NCBI GenBank assembly: GCA_020055655.1
Contig: JAIPUR010000026.1
Coordinates: 1 to 37,316, forward strand
Reading direction: 5' to 3'
DNA: 37,316 nucleotides
DNA from: Methanosarcinaceae archaeon
GTDB taxonomy: Archaea > Halobacteriota > Methanosarcinia > Methanosarcinales > Methanosarcinaceae
The translations under genes were made by a program, and so were the position numbers. The notes under the pieces are model-generated. The model made no database searches and had not been told where the DNA came from. It saw only the letters and a list, made by a program, of their open reading frames with translations. This document shows, one piece after another, positions 1,528 through 27,826 of this stretch; within the stretch, counting starts at the first letter, position 1, and the number at the start of each line of letters is the position of its first letter.

Positions 1528-1547
1528 TTTATATTAGGTATGTCTAA
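1528..1547 (+). promoter_or_regulatory. Probable TATA box overlapped by a dyad operator
   Basis: TTTATATTA (1528-1536) resembles an archaeal TATA box and is preceded by an A-rich BRE-like stretch. Overlapping it is TTAGGTATGTCTAA (1534-1547), an imperfect dyad with TTAG and CTAA arms. The ends resemble the TTAGGT...CTAA ends of DtxR-family metal-regulator boxes. A protein bound here would block TBP. The 17 bases 1531-1547 recur exactly at 27516-27532. A start of transcription about 25 bases downstream would give a leader of roughly 125 bases. Confidence 0.5.
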
Positions 1548-1683: not shown

Positions 1684-3465
1684 ATGGAAAAAGAAGTATA
1701 CGCCGGAGCAATGGCTGTTATTTCAAATATTGAAAATATAACCAATGACAGGATAGAGGCTTTAACCAAAGGACATGGCATGACTAATATTGCAGCAATG
1801 TGTGCTGCAAATGCGATTGCAACAGAAGTTTTCCGTGGGGTCAATATGATGCTCACTGATGAGGATGCAGGTAGTATTCAAGTAGATGATGTCCTGAGAA
1901 AAGGAATAGATGCTGCAAAAGAAGGGGGTGCAGATTCTGTTAATGCTGCATTGTTTGCAGCAACAATATGTTACTTTGCAGGTACAAACGCACAAGCTGG
2001 TGTTCCTGCAGGTAACAGGAAATTAGGGGCACTTGCCAGAATGATAGCTGGTGTTCCTCGCTCAGGTGTTCTTGCAGTTCCAACTCCAAAATCCAATAAT
2101 AAAGTATCTGGTTTTGCTGCTGTGCAGGCTCTTTATGAGGCATTAAAAGATGCTAAGCTTACAAAAGTCCAGGGGAAGCAGCTTCCTCTTGGTGTTGCAG
2201 GAGGGCCCCTTTATGGCCATAATACTTTAGGTGAAGATATTGGATTTGTGGAAGTTGCTACAAACGGTGCAAAAATAGCTACCCAAGCAATGATGGATGC
2301 TTACAGTGGAGCTGGAGTTTCTCCGAGTCCGGTTATTAGTGCTATAATGGGCGTTGCAGCCACTCTTGAAATAGTTCACCCTGATTCTTTTGTAGGTGAA
2401 GAACACGGTGGTTTCTTTGATGTGAACAGTGCTTCTTTAGCAGGAAAAGCTGCATGTGAAGTTGCTGGTATCCCTGAAAAACTACACATGCGGGGAACAA
2501 ATGAGGAGTATGACTCTGCTCATTTGATCGGTGATCTTGGAGTAATCATTAAGGATATAGGAGCTCCCACTGTAGTGGGTATGATGTCTTTTGGCGAGAT
2601 GCTTTGTTCATTCCAGGAATCAGTTGAGATAGGTGCAGGTTTTTCAGGTGGTCCTATAATGCCTCCGCTTGGGCATATGTCTGCTGATGCTATAATTGCT
2701 CTTAGATGCTTAATTCATACGAAAAATGATCAAGAACAATCTGCTGAAATGATCGCTGAGATCAAAAAGAACCAGTGGCTTGATCCAACCATGGCAGCAG
2801 TTGGTGCCAATACTATTTGCAGAAAAGTAGAGCAAGTAAGGCGTGGTCCTATCACAAAACTAGTAATCGATGCTACTGAGCCTGTAAGGTCTGCTGCAAT
2901 CTATAAAAGGGCAGAAAGATCATTTGAAGCACTCAAAGCTGGAAAATCAGTGGATGACATTGTTAAAGAATTCGATCTTGAAAGGAAAGAAACAGTTGAA
3001 GCAAATTCTTCTGCAATGCTTGGTGCTATGACAGGACATGAAGTTAGTGTAAAGATCAAGAAAATGGTGGGAGGTGCGAGAAGGAACCATCCGTTCACAA
3101 ATTCTTACTATGGCTTTGATACGGATGCCGATGTGGATGTTACCCTGGATGGAAAATTGTACGAACTTAAAGGATTAGCACAAACAGTGATTCCCAATGC
3201 CGTCTTTAATGAAGATACTGAAATACTTGGAGTCGTACCGTTTGCTTCAATTCCTGTATCTGAACTTCAGCTTTCAGGTCATTCTATTATAAATATGACT
3301 GTACCTGCTGCTGTTGCTGCTGCTATGGGTGTGGAGGATCCTGAAGAATCTGCAAAGAAATGTGAAGTTGGCGGGAAATATTGCAGTGCTGCAATTCCAG
3401 GTGCAAGAGCAAAAGCAAAAGCTGTATCAAAACTTGCAGTGCGGATTATGGATGCAATGAATTGA
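1684..3465 (+). CDS. Unrecognised 593-residue protein upstream of nickel-cofactor genes
   Basis: A long soluble protein that I cannot assign to a family. The ATG at 1684 is chosen because GGAG at 1672-1675 sits at the right distance; a GTG at 1675 in the same frame overlaps that site and is unlikely. The sequence is Ala/Gly-rich with glycine motifs of the kind that form active-site loops: a GGPLYGHN stretch, an EEHGGFFD stretch with His and acidic residues, a GGPIMPPLGHMSAD stretch, and several cysteines, two of them near the C-terminus (KKCEVGGKYCS). There are no membrane segments and no signal peptide. It is followed 49 bases later by a free-standing LarC C-terminal-like domain, then LarB and LarC. 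The context suggests a nickel- or cofactor-dependent enzyme or assembly factor; this is inference only. Confidence 0.93.
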   Translation: MEKEVYAGAMAVISNIENITNDRIEALTKGHGMTNIAAMCAANAIATEVFRGVNMMLTDEDAGSIQVDDVLRKGIDAAKEGGADSVNAALFAATICYFAGTNAQAGVPAGNRKLGALARMIAGVPRSGVLAVPTPKSNNKVSGFAAVQALYEALKDAKLTKVQGKQLPLGVAGGPLYGHNTLGEDIGFVEVATNGAKIATQAMMDAYSGAGVSPSPVISAIMGVAATLEIVHPDSFVGEEHGGFFDVNSASLAGKAACEVAGIPEKLHMRGTNEEYDSAHLIGDLGVIIKDIGAPTVVGMMSFGEMLCSFQESVEIGAGFSGGPIMPPLGHMSADAIIALRCLIHTKNDQEQSAEMIAEIKKNQWLDPTMAAVGANTICRKVEQVRRGPITKLVIDATEPVRSAAIYKRAERSFEALKAGKSVDDIVKEFDLERKETVEANSSAMLGAMTGHEVSVKIKKMVGGARRNHPFTNSYYGFDTDADVDVTLDGKLYELKGLAQTVIPNAVFNEDTEILGVVPFASIPVSELQLSGHSIINMTVPAAVAAAMGVEDPEESAKKCEVGGKYCSAAIPGARAKAKAVSKLAVRIMDAMN

Positions 3466-3514: not shown

Positions 3515-4078
3515 ATGCTGCTTATGACCAATGTTGATAACATAAATTGCGATCATGTTCCCTATGTTATTGAGGAGCTCATGAAAAAAGGTGCTCGCAA
3601 TGTTCATGTGATACCATCTATTACGAAAAAAGGCCGCAATGAGTATATCTTTTTCATTGATTGTACAAAAGATCAAGTTGAAGATCTCGCAGAGTTTCTG
3701 GTTGTGGAAACTGGAACTCTTGGTGTTCGCATAATTGAGAATGAACATTATGAATTTGAACATGAAATCAAAAAACTGGAAGTTACTTTTGAAAGAGGAA
3801 ACAATGATGCATTATGGCACGGTTCGATAAATTTTAAGATCGTTCGTAACAGGTCCGGAGAAATTCTTTCTGTACGAGCTGAATATGAAGAAATAAAAGC
3901 ACTTGCAAAGCATCTTCGGGACATGGGTTTGAATACTTCTCTGTATGAAGTTAAAGAGATGGTTGAGCGCTGCGCTGTTAAAAAATTCAAGGATATTGAA
4001 CTCAAGCATGAGGAATCAGAAAAAGATAATATTGTGCCCATTATCAACTTTTCAATTGAAGAATTACTATGTATGTAA
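3515..4078 (+). CDS. Stand-alone LarC C-terminal-domain paralogue (LarC2-like)
   Basis: A 187-residue protein that aligns with the C-terminal part of the LarC encoded 1 kb downstream. Shared blocks in order: TNVDNI against TNVDDV; KKGARNVHVIP against SIGARDVVIIP; KKGRNEYI against KKGRTGHI; ETGTLGVRII against ETGTLGIRII; SGEILSVRAEYE against SGEILHISAEYE; and VKEMVERC against LKEVIRRV. It lacks the N-terminal LarC domain (the FSGASGDM motif). In LarC proteins the C-terminal domain takes part in CTP-dependent nickel insertion into the pincer nucleotide, so this copy may have a related or partner-specific role (inference). GGAGG at 3503-3507 supports the start. It sits between the unknown gene and larB, probably co-transcribed with the former. 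Confidence 0.88.
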   Translation: MLLMTNVDNINCDHVPYVIEELMKKGARNVHVIPSITKKGRNEYIFFIDCTKDQVEDLAEFLVVETGTLGVRIIENEHYEFEHEIKKLEVTFERGNNDALWHGSINFKIVRNRSGEILSVRAEYEEIKALAKHLRDMGLNTSLYEVKEMVERCAVKKFKDIELKHEESEKDNIVPIINFSIEELLCM

Positions 4079-4176: not shown

Positions 4177-4953
4177 ATGGAACTTAAGAGCATATTGAAT
4201 AAGGTCAGAGATGAAGAAATTGATTTTCATGCTGCTGAAGCGCAGATTCGTTCTATGGGATACGTTCCCGTATCAGATATTGCCAAGATCGATATTTTCA
4301 GGAAACATCGTACTGGTATCATGGAAGCTATACTTGCAGAAGGTAAGGATCCTGCTGACGTTGTAAAAATAGCAAAGGCACAGATAGATGCCAGTGGCAG
4401 AGTATTGATCACCCGTTTGAATGATGACCATATTAGTTCATTGGAGGCACATTTCAAATCGGAGTTCATAGAATGGAGTCTCCATCGCAGTTCTGCTGTT
4501 GTTCATGATGGTACTCCCATATCTCTTACCGGTGGAGTAGTTGCCATAATTACAGCTGGCACTGCTGATATTGATGTTGCAGAAGAGGCTCGTATGGTTG
4601 CCCATGAAATGGGCTGTGAGACAATTGCTATTTATGACGTCGGTGTCGCAGGCTTCCATCGTCTTGTCGGTGAGATGAACAAGCTCCAGGAAAAGAAACC
4701 TGATTCAATTATCGTTGCAGCAGGCAGGGAAGGCACTTTACCGACGGTTGTATCTGGTCTTGTTGATATTCCTGTGATCGGACTTCCTGTATCCACAGGC
4801 TATGGTGCAGGTGGAAAGGGTGAGGCTTCACTGCTTTCCATGCTACAATCATGTTCTGTGATCTCTGTTGTGAATATAGATGCCGGATTTGTAGCAGGAT
4901 CATTTGCTGCACGTATCGCAAATACTGTTGCAGATGCCAGGAATAAGAAGTAG
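4177..4953 (+). CDS. larB: Nickel-pincer cofactor biosynthesis protein LarB
   Basis: LarB carboxylates the pyridinium ring of nicotinic acid adenine dinucleotide and hydrolyses it to the biscarboxylated mononucleotide, the first step of nickel-pincer nucleotide synthesis. The C-terminal two thirds carries the PurE/AIR-carboxylase-like fold, with the GREGTLPTVVSGL and VIGLPVSTGYG segments and a C-terminal VVNIDAGFVAG stretch typical of LarB rather than purine PurE. The length of 258 residues is normal. LarC lies 96 bases downstream. LarE, the sulfur-inserting enzyme, and a LarA racemase are not in this window. Methanogens often carry lar homologues without a known lactate racemase, so the final user of the cofactor is open. 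Confidence 0.92.
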   Translation: MELKSILNKVRDEEIDFHAAEAQIRSMGYVPVSDIAKIDIFRKHRTGIMEAILAEGKDPADVVKIAKAQIDASGRVLITRLNDDHISSLEAHFKSEFIEWSLHRSSAVVHDGTPISLTGGVVAIITAGTADIDVAEEARMVAHEMGCETIAIYDVGVAGFHRLVGEMNKLQEKKPDSIIVAAGREGTLPTVVSGLVDIPVIGLPVSTGYGAGGKGEASLLSMLQSCSVISVVNIDAGFVAGSFAARIANTVADARNKK

Positions 4954-5049: not shown

Positions 5050-6234
5050 ATGAGATCACTTGTATTTGAAGCATTTTCTGGTGCATCCGGGGATATGATG
5101 CTCGGGACCTTAATAGGCCTTGGTGCAGACAGACAAAAAATATCAGATGTAGTAGAATCTGCTGCTGATGTGAAAATGTATGTGGGCTCTGCCAATAAAT
5201 CTGGTATTGAAGCAGTTGATGTTCATATTGGTGTAGAATGCGAATCACATTCAAGAACCTACTTTGAAATAGTTGAGATCATAAAAGCTGCAGGTCTCTC
5301 AGCTCAAGTCGAAAAAAGTGCCCTTGGAGTTTTCTCCATAATGGCAGATGCAGAATCAAAGGTACATGGTAAGCCCCTGGATGAGTTGCACTTTCATGAA
5401 GTAGGGCAGAAGGATGCTCTTGCTGATGTGATAGGCTCATGTGCAGCTATACATGATATTGGTGCAGATTCCATATTCTGCACTCCTGTCAATGTTGGTG
5501 GTGGTATGGTCAAGGCTGCCCATGGTATGATGCCTGTACCGGCACCTGCAACCCTTGAGATCATGAAAGAGAGCATTTTATCATTATATGGCTCAGGCAA
5601 TCGGGAAATGCTGACACCAACAGGTGCTGCAATTCTGGCTTACTTTGCAGAACCCATAGAATCAATTCCAAAAGGACAGGTGCTTTCCATTGGCTACGGT
5701 GCTGGAAATGCGGACCTGGAGAATCCCAATGTTCTTCGTAGTACTTTGATGGAAACCAATGATGTATTGTCAAAAGATATAATAGAGGTTCTTGAAACCA
5801 ACGTGGATGATGTTACAGGCGAGGTTTTGGGAAATCTCTTTGATAAACTCCTTTCCATCGGTGCCCGGGATGTTGTAATAATACCCGTTACTATGAAAAA
5901 AGGACGTACTGGTCACATTATCAAAGTGATAACAAAACCTGAGCATAGTGCAAAAATTGCCCGCGTGATCATGAAGGAAACAGGAACACTTGGCATCCGT
6001 ATCATTCCAACAAGGCATCTCTTTGTTGCAGACAGACGCATGGATTCTGTGAATATTATGTTCTCAGATGAGGTCTTTGATATTGCCGTTAAGATCGCAC
6101 AGGATCAAAGCGGTGAAATCCTGCATATTTCTGCAGAATATGAAGATTGCCGTAAAGTTGCTGATAAAGTAGGCATTCCTTTAAAAGAAGTAATACGCCG
6201 GGTGGAAGGAGAAGCCTGGGGTAGGTTCTTGTAA
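5050..6234 (+). CDS. larC: Nickel-pincer cofactor biosynthesis protein LarC (nickel insertion)
   Basis: LarC is the CTP-dependent cyclometallase that inserts nickel into the dithio-pyridinium mononucleotide to complete the nickel-pincer cofactor. The N-terminal domain begins with the diagnostic FSGASGDM motif and includes LHFHEVG. The C-terminal ferredoxin-like domain starts near residue 248 at ETNVDDVTGE and continues through KKGRTGHI, ETGTLGIRII and SGEILHISAEYED. The protein is one uninterrupted chain, unlike lactobacilli where LarC1 and LarC2 are joined by programmed frameshifting. The ATG at 5050 is preferred because the family usually starts just before this motif; an in-frame TTG at 5035 would add five residues. 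A C-terminal-domain paralogue lies upstream at 3515. Confidence 0.93.
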   Translation: MRSLVFEAFSGASGDMMLGTLIGLGADRQKISDVVESAADVKMYVGSANKSGIEAVDVHIGVECESHSRTYFEIVEIIKAAGLSAQVEKSALGVFSIMADAESKVHGKPLDELHFHEVGQKDALADVIGSCAAIHDIGADSIFCTPVNVGGGMVKAAHGMMPVPAPATLEIMKESILSLYGSGNREMLTPTGAAILAYFAEPIESIPKGQVLSIGYGAGNADLENPNVLRSTLMETNDVLSKDIIEVLETNVDDVTGEVLGNLFDKLLSIGARDVVIIPVTMKKGRTGHIIKVITKPEHSAKIARVIMKETGTLGIRIIPTRHLFVADRRMDSVNIMFSDEVFDIAVKIAQDQSGEILHISAEYEDCRKVADKVGIPLKEVIRRVEGEAWGRFL

Positions 6235-6327: not shown

Positions 6328-7224
6328 ATGATAGATGACGTCATAAAGAGATTCAAGGAACTTGACAAAAAGGAATTGCGTATAATCACAGGCATTGAAA
6401 TAGGGATGAAGCACCATGAGTGGGTCCCTATTGAAGAGGTGGCAAAGTTTACCAAACTTCCATATTCAACGCTTGAGTACAAAATAAGAGAGCTTGTTAA
6501 GCAGAATATGGTTCTTGCGACCCATGTTCCATATGATGGATATCAGATCTACTTTGATGCTTACGATGCTCTTGCGCTGAATACTTTTGTGAAAAGGGGA
6601 ACCATTAGTGGCATCGGTGATGAGATCGGTGTTGGCAAGGAATCTGTTGTTCTTGAGGCGGTAAAAGATCCCGAACTTTCAATTGGTGAACAACAGGGTG
6701 TAATTCTGAAATTCCACAGGGAGGGAAGGACCAGTTTCAAACAGGTAAAAAGGCTGCGCTCCCACCTTGCGGACAGGGAACATTTCTCATGGATATATGC
6801 TGCAAGGCTTGCTGCAAAAAGAGAAGCCGATATCATGAAAAAACTCTGTGATGATGTTCCAATGCCAAGAGTTATTGACAATAACCGTCATGCTCTGGTT
6901 ATGGAGCTTGCCAAAGGCAGTATTCTCTACAAAACAAAGCTAGAAGATCCCCAATGGTTCTTTGACGAGATAATGCGTCTGATAAAGCTCACTTACAGTA
7001 AAGGCATAATACATTGCGATCTGAGTGAGTACAACATCTTTGTTTTTGAGGGTGGAGTGCAATTCATTGACTGGCCACAATATGTTGAGACTACGCATCC
7101 GCATGCTGATGAATTACTTGAAAGGGATATTTCGAACCTGCTCAAGTACTTTAAGCGCAAATACAACATCAAAAAAGATCTAAGAGAGCTTGCCGAGTAT
7201 GTCAAAAGCAGTGAAGAGTCATAG
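6328..7224 (+). CDS. rio2: RIO2-type serine/threonine kinase
   Basis: An atypical protein kinase/ATPase that acts in late maturation of the small ribosomal subunit. The first ~90 residues form the winged-helix domain that distinguishes RIO2 from RIO1 (PYSTLEYKIRELVKQ region). The nucleotide loop follows at 95-106 (GIGDEIGVGKES), with the ATP-contacting Lys at K128. The catalytic loop HCDLSEYN places the catalytic Asp at D231, and the metal-binding IDWPQ motif, the RIO form of DFG, has D248. The length of 298 residues is normal for archaeal RIO2. The start has no clear Shine-Dalgarno site. The DUF460 gene follows 30 bases downstream on the same strand. Confidence 0.96.
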   Translation: MIDDVIKRFKELDKKELRIITGIEIGMKHHEWVPIEEVAKFTKLPYSTLEYKIRELVKQNMVLATHVPYDGYQIYFDAYDALALNTFVKRGTISGIGDEIGVGKESVVLEAVKDPELSIGEQQGVILKFHREGRTSFKQVKRLRSHLADREHFSWIYAARLAAKREADIMKKLCDDVPMPRVIDNNRHALVMELAKGSILYKTKLEDPQWFFDEIMRLIKLTYSKGIIHCDLSEYNIFVFEGGVQFIDWPQYVETTHPHADELLERDISNLLKYFKRKYNIKKDLRELAEYVKSSEES

Positions 7225-25873: not shown

Positions 25874-27367
25874 TTAATCATTGACTTGTTCTATTGGCAC
25901 TTTTAATTTAAAAGTAGACCCTTTTTCTACTTCACTCTCTACTTCAATAGTACCATTATGAAGTTCAATAAATTGTTTGACAAGTGCAAGCCCAAGCCCT
26001 GTGCCCTGATATTTTCTCGACTCTGCTGAATCTACCTGTCTAAAAGGATGGAATATTATTTCTTGCTCATGTTCGTCTATGCCTATTCCTGTGTCGGTAA
26101 CTTCAATTAGCATGTATCCGTCATCATTCTTTGTAGAAATGTGAATGCTTCCATTTTCCGGGGTAAATTTGACTGCATTGTTTAAAAGATTATACATCAT
26201 TTGCTTGAATTTAGTTCTGTCAGCATATATTTCAACATTATTTTCCGGAGCATCTATTTTTATAGTTATATTTTTCTTATTTGCTATTGGGTAAATAAGT
26301 GCTTCAACATCATCAAATATCTCTTTTAGATTGAAATGCTCGCAATTGAGTTCCATTTTTCCAGCTTCGATCTTTGAAATATCCAGAATATTATTGATCA
26401 GGCCTAGTAGGTGTATTCCACTGTTCGTTATATGGGACGAATATCTTTTCTGTTCATCATTTAAATCACCGTATATCTCATCGGCCATTATTTGTGAAAA
26501 ACCAATTATGGAATTTAGAGGTGTTCTAAGTTCATGGCTCATTGTTGCCAGAAAATCAGATTTTGTACGGCTTGCTTCCTCCGCAGTCATCCTTGCAGCA
26601 GTCAGATCATCTTGTGTTTGTTTAAGCTCTGAAATATCCTGGAAATTCTCAAGTATATATTCTTCACCATCTATTGTGACAACTTTTGCATTCTTTATAA
26701 TGGGCTTTTTTTCTGAACTAATGCACTTTATTGCGGTATCCATTCCCTGGAATCCACTGTTTCCTTCTTCCCATATTGGACATTTTTTCGAAGCTGAACC
26801 CTTTGGACATAGTTTATCGCATAACTGGCCAATTAGTTCTTCCCTCTTAAAGCCTGTGATCTCACATGTCCTGTAGTTTACATCTTTTATGATGTAATCT
26901 CTGCCTATGATCAATGTTGCACCAGGCATATTCTCATACAATGTCTGAAGGCGCTCTTCACTTTCCTTGAGTTTATTTTTAATATTTCTCTGCTCGCTGA
27001 TATCACTGTATAATCCAAAATATCCATATATGTTGCCCTTTTCGTCAAGCATTGGTGTAATATTATATTTGCAGAAAAGAAAGGTTCCATTCTTTCGCTG
27101 AAACATAGTTTCACCGACGCATCTACCTTTTGAATCTATTGAATCACAAAAATTCTTTCGTGCTTCTTCTGGTAACTGTTCGGAACTAAAAACTTCAAAG
27201 AGAGTTTTTCCTAAAAGTTCCTTAAGGCTCCAGCCATAAAGCTCTTCAAATGCTTTATTGATGTATTGAATTCTGTGCTTTTCATCAGTGCAGATTATGT
27301 TGTTTGAAGATTGGTTCACAATACTTTTAATATTGAATATTTCTTTTTTTTTTGCATGGCTGACCAT
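25874..27367 (-). CDS. Cytoplasmic PAS-PAS sensor histidine kinase
   Basis: A 497-residue two-component sensor without membrane helices. Domains in order: PAS 1 (about 15-125), PAS 2 (about 145-255), HisKA with phospho-acceptor H278 in MSHELRTPLN, and a HATPase with the N box NLLNNAVKFTP, G1 DTGIGI, the PFRQVD segment and G2 GTGLGLALVKQ. PAS 2 is cysteine-rich: C168, C183, C187, C196 and C215, with CPKG and CPIW motifs that could hold a metal or act as a redox switch. A run of ten A follows the start codon closely (complement of 27344-27353). No response regulator is adjacent. The small winged-helix gene is divergent from it, 204 bases away. Confidence 0.93.
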   Translation of the reverse strand: MVSHAKKKEIFNIKSIVNQSSNNIICTDEKHRIQYINKAFEELYGWSLKELLGKTLFEVFSSEQLPEEARKNFCDSIDSKGRCVGETMFQRKNGTFLFCKYNITPMLDEKGNIYGYFGLYSDISEQRNIKNKLKESEERLQTLYENMPGATLIIGRDYIIKDVNYRTCEITGFKREELIGQLCDKLCPKGSASKKCPIWEEGNSGFQGMDTAIKCISSEKKPIIKNAKVVTIDGEEYILENFQDISELKQTQDDLTAARMTAEEASRTKSDFLATMSHELRTPLNSIIGFSQIMADEIYGDLNDEQKRYSSHITNSGIHLLGLINNILDISKIEAGKMELNCEHFNLKEIFDDVEALIYPIANKKNITIKIDAPENNVEIYADRTKFKQMMYNLLNNAVKFTPENGSIHISTKNDDGYMLIEVTDTGIGIDEHEQEIIFHPFRQVDSAESRKYQGTGLGLALVKQFIELHNGTIEVESEVEKGSTFKLKVPIEQVND

Positions 27368-27471: not shown

Positions 27472-27532
27472 TTATATAAATATATAGATATGCACATTCA
27501 TAGCGAAAACAATTAATATTAGGTATGTCTAA
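27472..27532 (+). promoter_or_regulatory. TATA box and duplicated 17-bp operator-like site before the winged-helix gene
   Basis: TTATATAAATATATAG (27472-27487) is a strong TATA-like element. ATATTAGGTATGTCTAA (27516-27532), downstream of it, is identical over 17 bases to 1531-1547. At this promoter the site would lie near or just after the transcription start, where a bound repressor would also block initiation. Confidence 0.5.
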
Positions 27533-27571: not shown

Positions 27572-27826
27572 ATGAATTTCAATGCTGGGGGCATTATTAT
27601 TAGGCGGAGTAGACTTGACATTACACTTGAAATACTAAAGATTGCTGCTGATGGTGCAAAAAAGACACAGATTGTTTATGGAGCAAACCTGAATTCAACA
27701 ATAGCAAATAAATATCTTATGAGATTGGAAAATAAAGATCTAATTACTCAAAATGGTGATATCTTCTTAACGACTGACAAAGGCCGGGTATATAAGGAAA
27801 TGGCAAGTGAGTTAGATATTAGCTGA
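27572..27826 (+). CDS. Small winged-helix DNA-binding protein
   Basis: An 84-residue archaeal winged-helix protein resembling the HTH_45 group. It runs DITLEILKIAADGAKKTQIVYGANLN, then the recognition region STIANKYLMRLENKDLI, then a beta wing with DIFLTTDKGRVY. The ATG at 27572 is preferred because the frame before it (from a TTG at 27548) is Trp-rich and unconserved-looking; GGTGG lies just upstream. Probably a transcription regulator. Its own promoter carries the same 17-bp site as the promoter of the gene at 1684, which makes autoregulation and a link to that gene a testable idea. Confidence 0.8.
   Translation: MNFNAGGIIIRRSRLDITLEILKIAADGAKKTQIVYGANLNSTIANKYLMRLENKDLITQNGDIFLTTDKGRVYKEMASELDIS

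Follow-up and report, generated by a model that had tools for sequence, protein, structure and literature searches.

Why should the same 17 bases stand at two distant promoters of one archaeal contig, and what might recognize them there? The DNA analysed here (the window, 37,316 nucleotides in length) is contig C18 in the 2.48-Mb genome of a Methanolobus-like methanogen. A search of the window placed ATATTAGGTATGTCTAA exactly at 1531-1547 and at 27516-27532, on the plus strand in both cases, and detected no third copy within the window even when up to three mismatches were allowed. Each copy lies at a TATA-like element, so that the description of the sequence in the first-pass annotation, as one common to two promoters, is borne out. 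The core of the sequence is a dyad of the form TTAG-N6-CTAA, in which 10 of 14 positions (5 of 7 position pairs) are symmetric at the window sites. The 14-base core, TTAGGTATGTCTAA, has only two exact occurrences genome-wide, and these are the two window sites; the 12-base core, TAGGTATGTCTA, has one extra copy at C11:165166 (ATAGGTATGTCTAT), which is within a coding frame and at which the 14-base core has one mismatch. The features of the window that bear on the question are as follows.

1528-1534, plus strand: TATA-like TTTATAT immediately 5' of box 1, recognized by eye, with a presumptive transcription start
1531-1547, plus strand: copy 1 of the 17-mer, with the dyad core TTAGGTATGTCTAA at 1534-1547; proposed DtxR-type operator
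1684-3465, plus strand: 593-residue protein that leads the LarB/LarC block and matches no Pfam or NCBIfam profile
3515-4078, plus strand: LarC2-like protein, from profile matches
4177-4953, plus strand: LarB (nickel-pincer cofactor synthesis), from a profile match
5056-6234, plus strand: LarC, from profile matches, start provisional
27513-27519, plus strand: putative TATA-like TTAATAT immediately 5' of box 2
27516-27532, plus strand: copy 2 of the 17-mer, with the dyad core at 27519-27532; proposed DtxR-type operator
27572-27826, plus strand: 84-residue winged-helix protein of the Sso10a family / HTH_45, from profile and structure-chain matches
27587-27591, plus strand: GGGGG ribosome-binding stretch
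27599-27601, plus strand: AUU codon homologous to the apparent start of relatives, from sequence comparison

The distance between TTAATAT (27513-27519) and the start at the second promoter is approximately that of TTAAATA in related loci, and TTATATAAATATA, which lies ~30 nt 5' of site 2, is probably the TATA box that the first-pass annotation had in mind. Downstream of the first promoter, the 593-residue gene is the leader of a recurrent group of genes: it has relatives in 6 of the 60 genomes searched, and is followed by the LarC2-like, LarB and LarC genes in all 10 of the named loci (L045-L054), two of which carry an insert of ~2.5 kb. Genes of the LarA and LarE types are located elsewhere in the genome. 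The 593-residue protein, for which the predicted structure has a mean pLDDT of 42.5, is a candidate nickel-pincer-dependent enzyme. In the neighborhood of the second promoter, the winged-helix gene is preceded by a gene for a PAS-domain histidine kinase (25874-27367), on the far side of which are a fumarase-like gene and tRNA-Leu; at the related locus L036, a frame that by eye is named as fumarase-like stands directly upstream of the winged-helix gene.

The first-pass annotation considered an exact chance repeat of 17 bases at two promoters of a 37-kb stretch to be unlikely. At least one exact 17-mer repeat appeared in 66 of 200 whole-window shuffles and in 58 of 200 segment-wise shuffles of these 37 kb (61% AT), and the window itself contains a second 17-bp repeat, inverted, at 6617 and 11332 inside genes. 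When only the 3,258 bases of the non-coding segments were shuffled, a same-strand pair of 17-mers arose in 8 of 1000 trials and a pair on either strand in 55 of 1000, figures that slightly underestimate repeats, as can be seen from the 12-mer pairs (9 direct plus 4.5 inverted observed, versus a mean of 6.1 in all). Elsewhere in the same genome, 6 of 10 other 37-kb stretches have an exact repeat of at least 17 bases with copies more than 100 bp apart, and in 3 of the 10, mostly repeat-rich or tRNA stretches, both copies are non-coding. Taken alone, the pair of 17-mers is unusual, and the evidence that it provides is weak and indecisive.

Further evidence comes from outside the window. A search of the genome for DtxR-family and NikR proteins returned three DtxR proteins above the cut-off, two weaker ones and one NikR. 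One of the three matches both PF01325 and PF02742, with DNA-binding and metal-binding domains in one chain, and the next two genes after it match FeoA and FeoB, the whole forming a ferrous iron uptake cluster.

L058, C47:37191-37364: DtxR-family gene, feo-linked, from PF01325/PF02742 profile matches
Locus L169 (dtxR-feo) of contig C47, minus strand: repressor at 2389-2871, box at 2922-2935

Upstream of the ATG of this gene is CTTTATAAAATAGGTATGCCTATGATTT, within which ATAGGTATGCCTAT lies immediately 3' of TTTATAAA and 50 nt ahead of the start codon, with 12 of its 14 positions (6 of 7 pairs) symmetric. Its core, TAGGTATGCCTA, is identical to the window core TAGGTATGTCTA at 11 of 12 bases; over all 14 positions there are three differences, and the window sites are less symmetric than the dtxR box. 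The box follows directly after the TATA element at dtxR, in the same arrangement as TTTATATTAGGTATGTCTAA at 1528-1547. Two copies of TAGGTATGNCTA lie in the window and one at dtxR-feo, and a scan of 400 kb taken from elsewhere in this genome gave none. A core with at most one mismatch occurred upstream of any of the three DtxR genes in 87 of 20,000 shuffles of the 160 nt upstream, a count to be read as partly post hoc, given that several other upstream regions and dyads had been viewed earlier, even though the DtxR hypothesis itself predates the test. When all six of the regulators scanned are included, the count is 128 of 20,000, and among ordinary ORFs such a core was present upstream of 1 in 319. 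The upstream regions of the other two DtxR-family genes and of nikR are without the box. The resemblance of the TTAG...CTAA dyad to a DtxR-type box, as originally proposed, is thus strengthened by the near-identical dyad at the dtxR-feoA-feoB promoter.

The closest known systems are the bacterial operators of the DtxR/IdeR/MntR type and, among archaea, MDR1, a repressor of the DtxR family in Archaeoglobus fulgidus. The boxes described here share with the DtxR/IdeR/MntR operators the TTAGG-like arms of the dyad, the adjoining dtxR-family and feo genes (in the case of the dtxR-feo box) and a placement just downstream of TATA, at which transcription would be blocked; the inverted repeat with arms of the TTAGG/CCTAA kind extends over 5 of 7 pairs at the window sites and 6 of 7 at dtxR-feo. 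The consensus of the bacterial DtxR box is 19 bp long, whereas the core in the window is 14 bp and imperfect. An alignment by eye to the 19-bp consensus, which is bacterial and might not be that of the archaeal host, reaches only as far as these inner 14 bp. The prospective targets, a LarB/LarC-linked block and a gene for a chromatin-type protein, are unlike the classical targets in iron uptake, and the window boxes, in contrast to known DtxR operators, are not conserved in relatives.

The absence of conservation extends to everything that was compared. The 14-mer core is absent from all 59 of the other genomes, four of which contain the reversed control, and near-matches with up to two mismatches are not enriched across the genome (24, versus 35 for the reversed pattern). 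Upstream of the relatives of the 593-residue gene (11 in number, the 10 named loci plus L014), the best match has at least four mismatches, and no box with one mismatch or fewer is found upstream of the 29 related winged-helix loci, of which only L040 comes within two. The first-pass annotation had specified beforehand that a lack of conservation in close relatives would count against its proposal, and for both genes such a lack is what we observed. Since the box is absent at relatives of both genes, any wiring through it would have to be lineage-specific. The comparison had the power to see conservation, because other conserved elements are visible in the same upstream regions. One of these, CGATN4TTAAATA, is upstream of the winged-helix gene in 20 of 30 loci and is absent at the window copy. 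Another, a TAACNNNGTTA-type dyad (ACNNNGTTA preceded by TA or TC), occurs at 8 of the 10 named loci of the 593-residue gene and is also absent from the window; it lies 79-95 bases upstream of the relatives of this gene (L045-L054), followed by ATAACTATTTA in seven loci, and the loci that have it are those of the Methanosarcina type and of M. vulcani. The TAACNNNGTTA-type dyad is probably the ancestral operator of the 593-residue gene. As the window copies have neither of these elements, both promoters have apparently been rebuilt in this lineage.

A separate candidate for the same operator emerged from matches to TTAGNTATNTCTAA across the genus, which are dominated by one promoter, that of geranylgeranyl reductase. 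A block of ~45 bases at this promoter, which starts with TAGTTAGATATATCTAATAGAATGTG and includes TTAGATATATCTAA, a sequence that differs from the window dyad at two bases, is nearly invariant in all 25 of the Methanolobus loci taken without preselection (L142-L166; a 26th, L167, was omitted as it is cut off at its start), and is separated from the start codon by 27 to 158 bases in the 18 loci measured. We rejected this block as an instance of the operator, in that conservation over its ~45 bases is asymmetric and 4 of the 25 loci have an altered CTAA arm; it looks like a core promoter. Outside the genus, the TTAGNTATNTCTAA pattern has no obvious excess over the control.

The product of the gene at the second promoter is itself a DNA-binding protein by family. 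The 84-residue protein matches NF053610 with 79.8 bits against a cut-off of 60, which places the Sso10a-family domain in it, and also matches the solved Sso10a chain 1r7j (84 residues versus 95). The Sso10a chromatin proteins of Sulfolobus possess a long C-terminal helix that forms the rod of the antiparallel dimer, and the corresponding helix of the window protein is shorter, as judged by length only. In one report, DNA was bent, bridged or coated by Sso10a1 and Sso10a2 with no apparent preference for particular sequences, although the authors add that specific sites could not be detected by their experiments (PMC4941522). Given its membership in this family, the winged-helix protein is probably regulated through the box and is not likely to be the common regulator itself. 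In two related genomes (L040 and L084), a near-identical stretch carries TTAGTTATATCTAA 75 bases ahead of the AUU of another winged-helix copy.

The manner in which translation of this family begins is unusual in its own right. The copies examined were L016-L044, L083-L101 and L063 (paralogues of this genome's own). In 17 of 33 copies the stretch from the nearest in-frame stop to the conserved RRSR contains no ATG, GTG or TTG, and in 32 of 33 a run of at least five G residues is followed, after a few bases, by the codon that precedes RRSR. In L016 and L018 the stop in frame is only seven codons ahead of the AUU. This codon, in 50 copies obtained from 52 sequences (three without the anchor and one that gave two), is ATT in 24, ATC in 12, ATA in 10, ATG in 3 and TTG in 1, and is never a valine codon or CTN in these 50. 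ATG is located at exactly this codon in L017 and in a second copy in this genome. On the simplest reading of these comparisons, members of the family would appear to initiate translation at AUU, AUC or AUA, a type of initiation that is known for the bacterial infC gene. The GTC start reported for sigR is similar in spirit (PMC5472188). Alternatives are that the isoleucine is conserved and the start is an unseen one, or that ribosomes slip on the G run; slippage from an out-of-frame ATG fails for copies that do not have that ATG (e.g., L020 and L022-L026). The window copy has an extra in-frame ATG at 27572 and so may have escaped the AUU/AUC/AUA start. At the winged-helix start RNAalifold returned no consensus hairpin, although for one named hairpin, whose loop would hold the G run, 79.6% of cells pair, versus at most 58.4% when it is slid; such a hairpin is no more than suggestive.

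Taken together, we consider it probable that the 17-mer is a lineage-specific operator of the DtxR type over the LarB/LarC-linked block and the winged-helix gene. What is directly observed is that the 17-mer is shared exactly, that a near-identical box stands at the dtxR promoter, that the layout relative to TATA is the same and that the proteins belong to the families named. The regulator would be the genome's own DtxR-family repressor, encoded beside feoA and feoB; it would act on the feo cluster to which it belongs, on the 593-residue gene with the LarC2-like/LarB/LarC block behind it and on the winged-helix gene of the Sso10a type. On the model of other DtxR-family repressors, a dimer loaded with metal would cover the box between TATA and the start site, sitting on TAGGTATGYCTA immediately downstream of the TATA box, and would block the assembly or the escape of the transcription complex; it would leave TAGGTATGYCTA when the metal became short. 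Fe2+ would be the most likely metal because of the feo linkage. The binding, the metal, the repression and the choice of this one among three DtxR-family proteins are inferred from sequence only.

Three other explanations deserve to be weighed against this regulatory reading. Two AT-rich promoters might share 17 bases by chance, with the likeness to the dtxR box as a second coincidence; the shuffled windows, a third of which (66 of 200) have a repeat of this length, the absence of the 17-mer from all relatives and the lack of enrichment of near-matches in the genome are all compatible with such an origin. This explanation requires two separate rare events, one at 8 in 1000 (the non-coding pair) and the other at ~4 in 1000 (the dtxR match), and leaves the shared layout after the TATA box to be explained as well, and we judge it to be rather unlikely. 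It is also conceivable that the dyad serves another regulator, such as one resembling NikR, a further member of the DtxR family with another metal as its signal, or a different winged-helix-turn-helix protein. The genome does encode a NikR and two more DtxR-family proteins above the cut-off, and the first target adjoins LarB and LarC of a nickel-cofactor pathway, but the genes for these other regulators have no similar box upstream, which makes this alternative improbable.

The last explanation is that of the first-pass annotation, in which the 17-mer is the binding site of the 84-residue winged-helix protein, which would control its own gene and the LarB/LarC block through it. The location of a 17-mer in the gene's own promoter would suit such autoregulation, as would the similar dyad TTAGTTATATCTAA at a nearly equal distance in the distant paralogous loci L040 and L084. 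Against it are the affiliation of the protein with the Sso10a family, the different element, CGATN4TTAAATA, in the promoters of its relatives, the absence of the box from the 29 related loci and from the upstream regions of the two other winged-helix copies in this genome, and a mismatch in distribution, in that relatives of the winged-helix gene were present in 47 of the 60 genomes searched and those of its supposed partner in 6. We consider this version very improbable.

To our knowledge, the DtxR-family regulons of methanogens seem poorly mapped; a search of the literature yielded no operator map for them, and nothing on the present operator or on Sso10a genes with an AUU start. The operator proposed here, under the feo-linked DtxR protein, belongs to a known kind of system with unexpected targets and not to a new kind. 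If the LarB/LarC block is a target, its control might, as a speculation, amount to an iron-sparing switch. A broader scheme is possible, although on balance we doubt it: an iron-sensing DtxR protein might have captured both a nickel-pincer-linked block led by a conserved, enzyme-like protein, as an iron-sparing nickel substitute for times of iron shortage, and a chromatin-type gene of a family with an AUU/AUC/AUA start behind GGGGG, possibly in a hairpin. This would give two layers of control, one exerted by metal on transcription and the other on translation through discrimination of the start codon. If the operator reading is true, it would provide a concrete operator sequence, WTAGGTATGYCTAW, together with its repressor and two unexpected targets, one linked to nickel-pincer cofactor synthesis and the other to chromatin, and it would represent a recent rewiring in this lineage, in which the relatives retain the genes and use other promoter elements.
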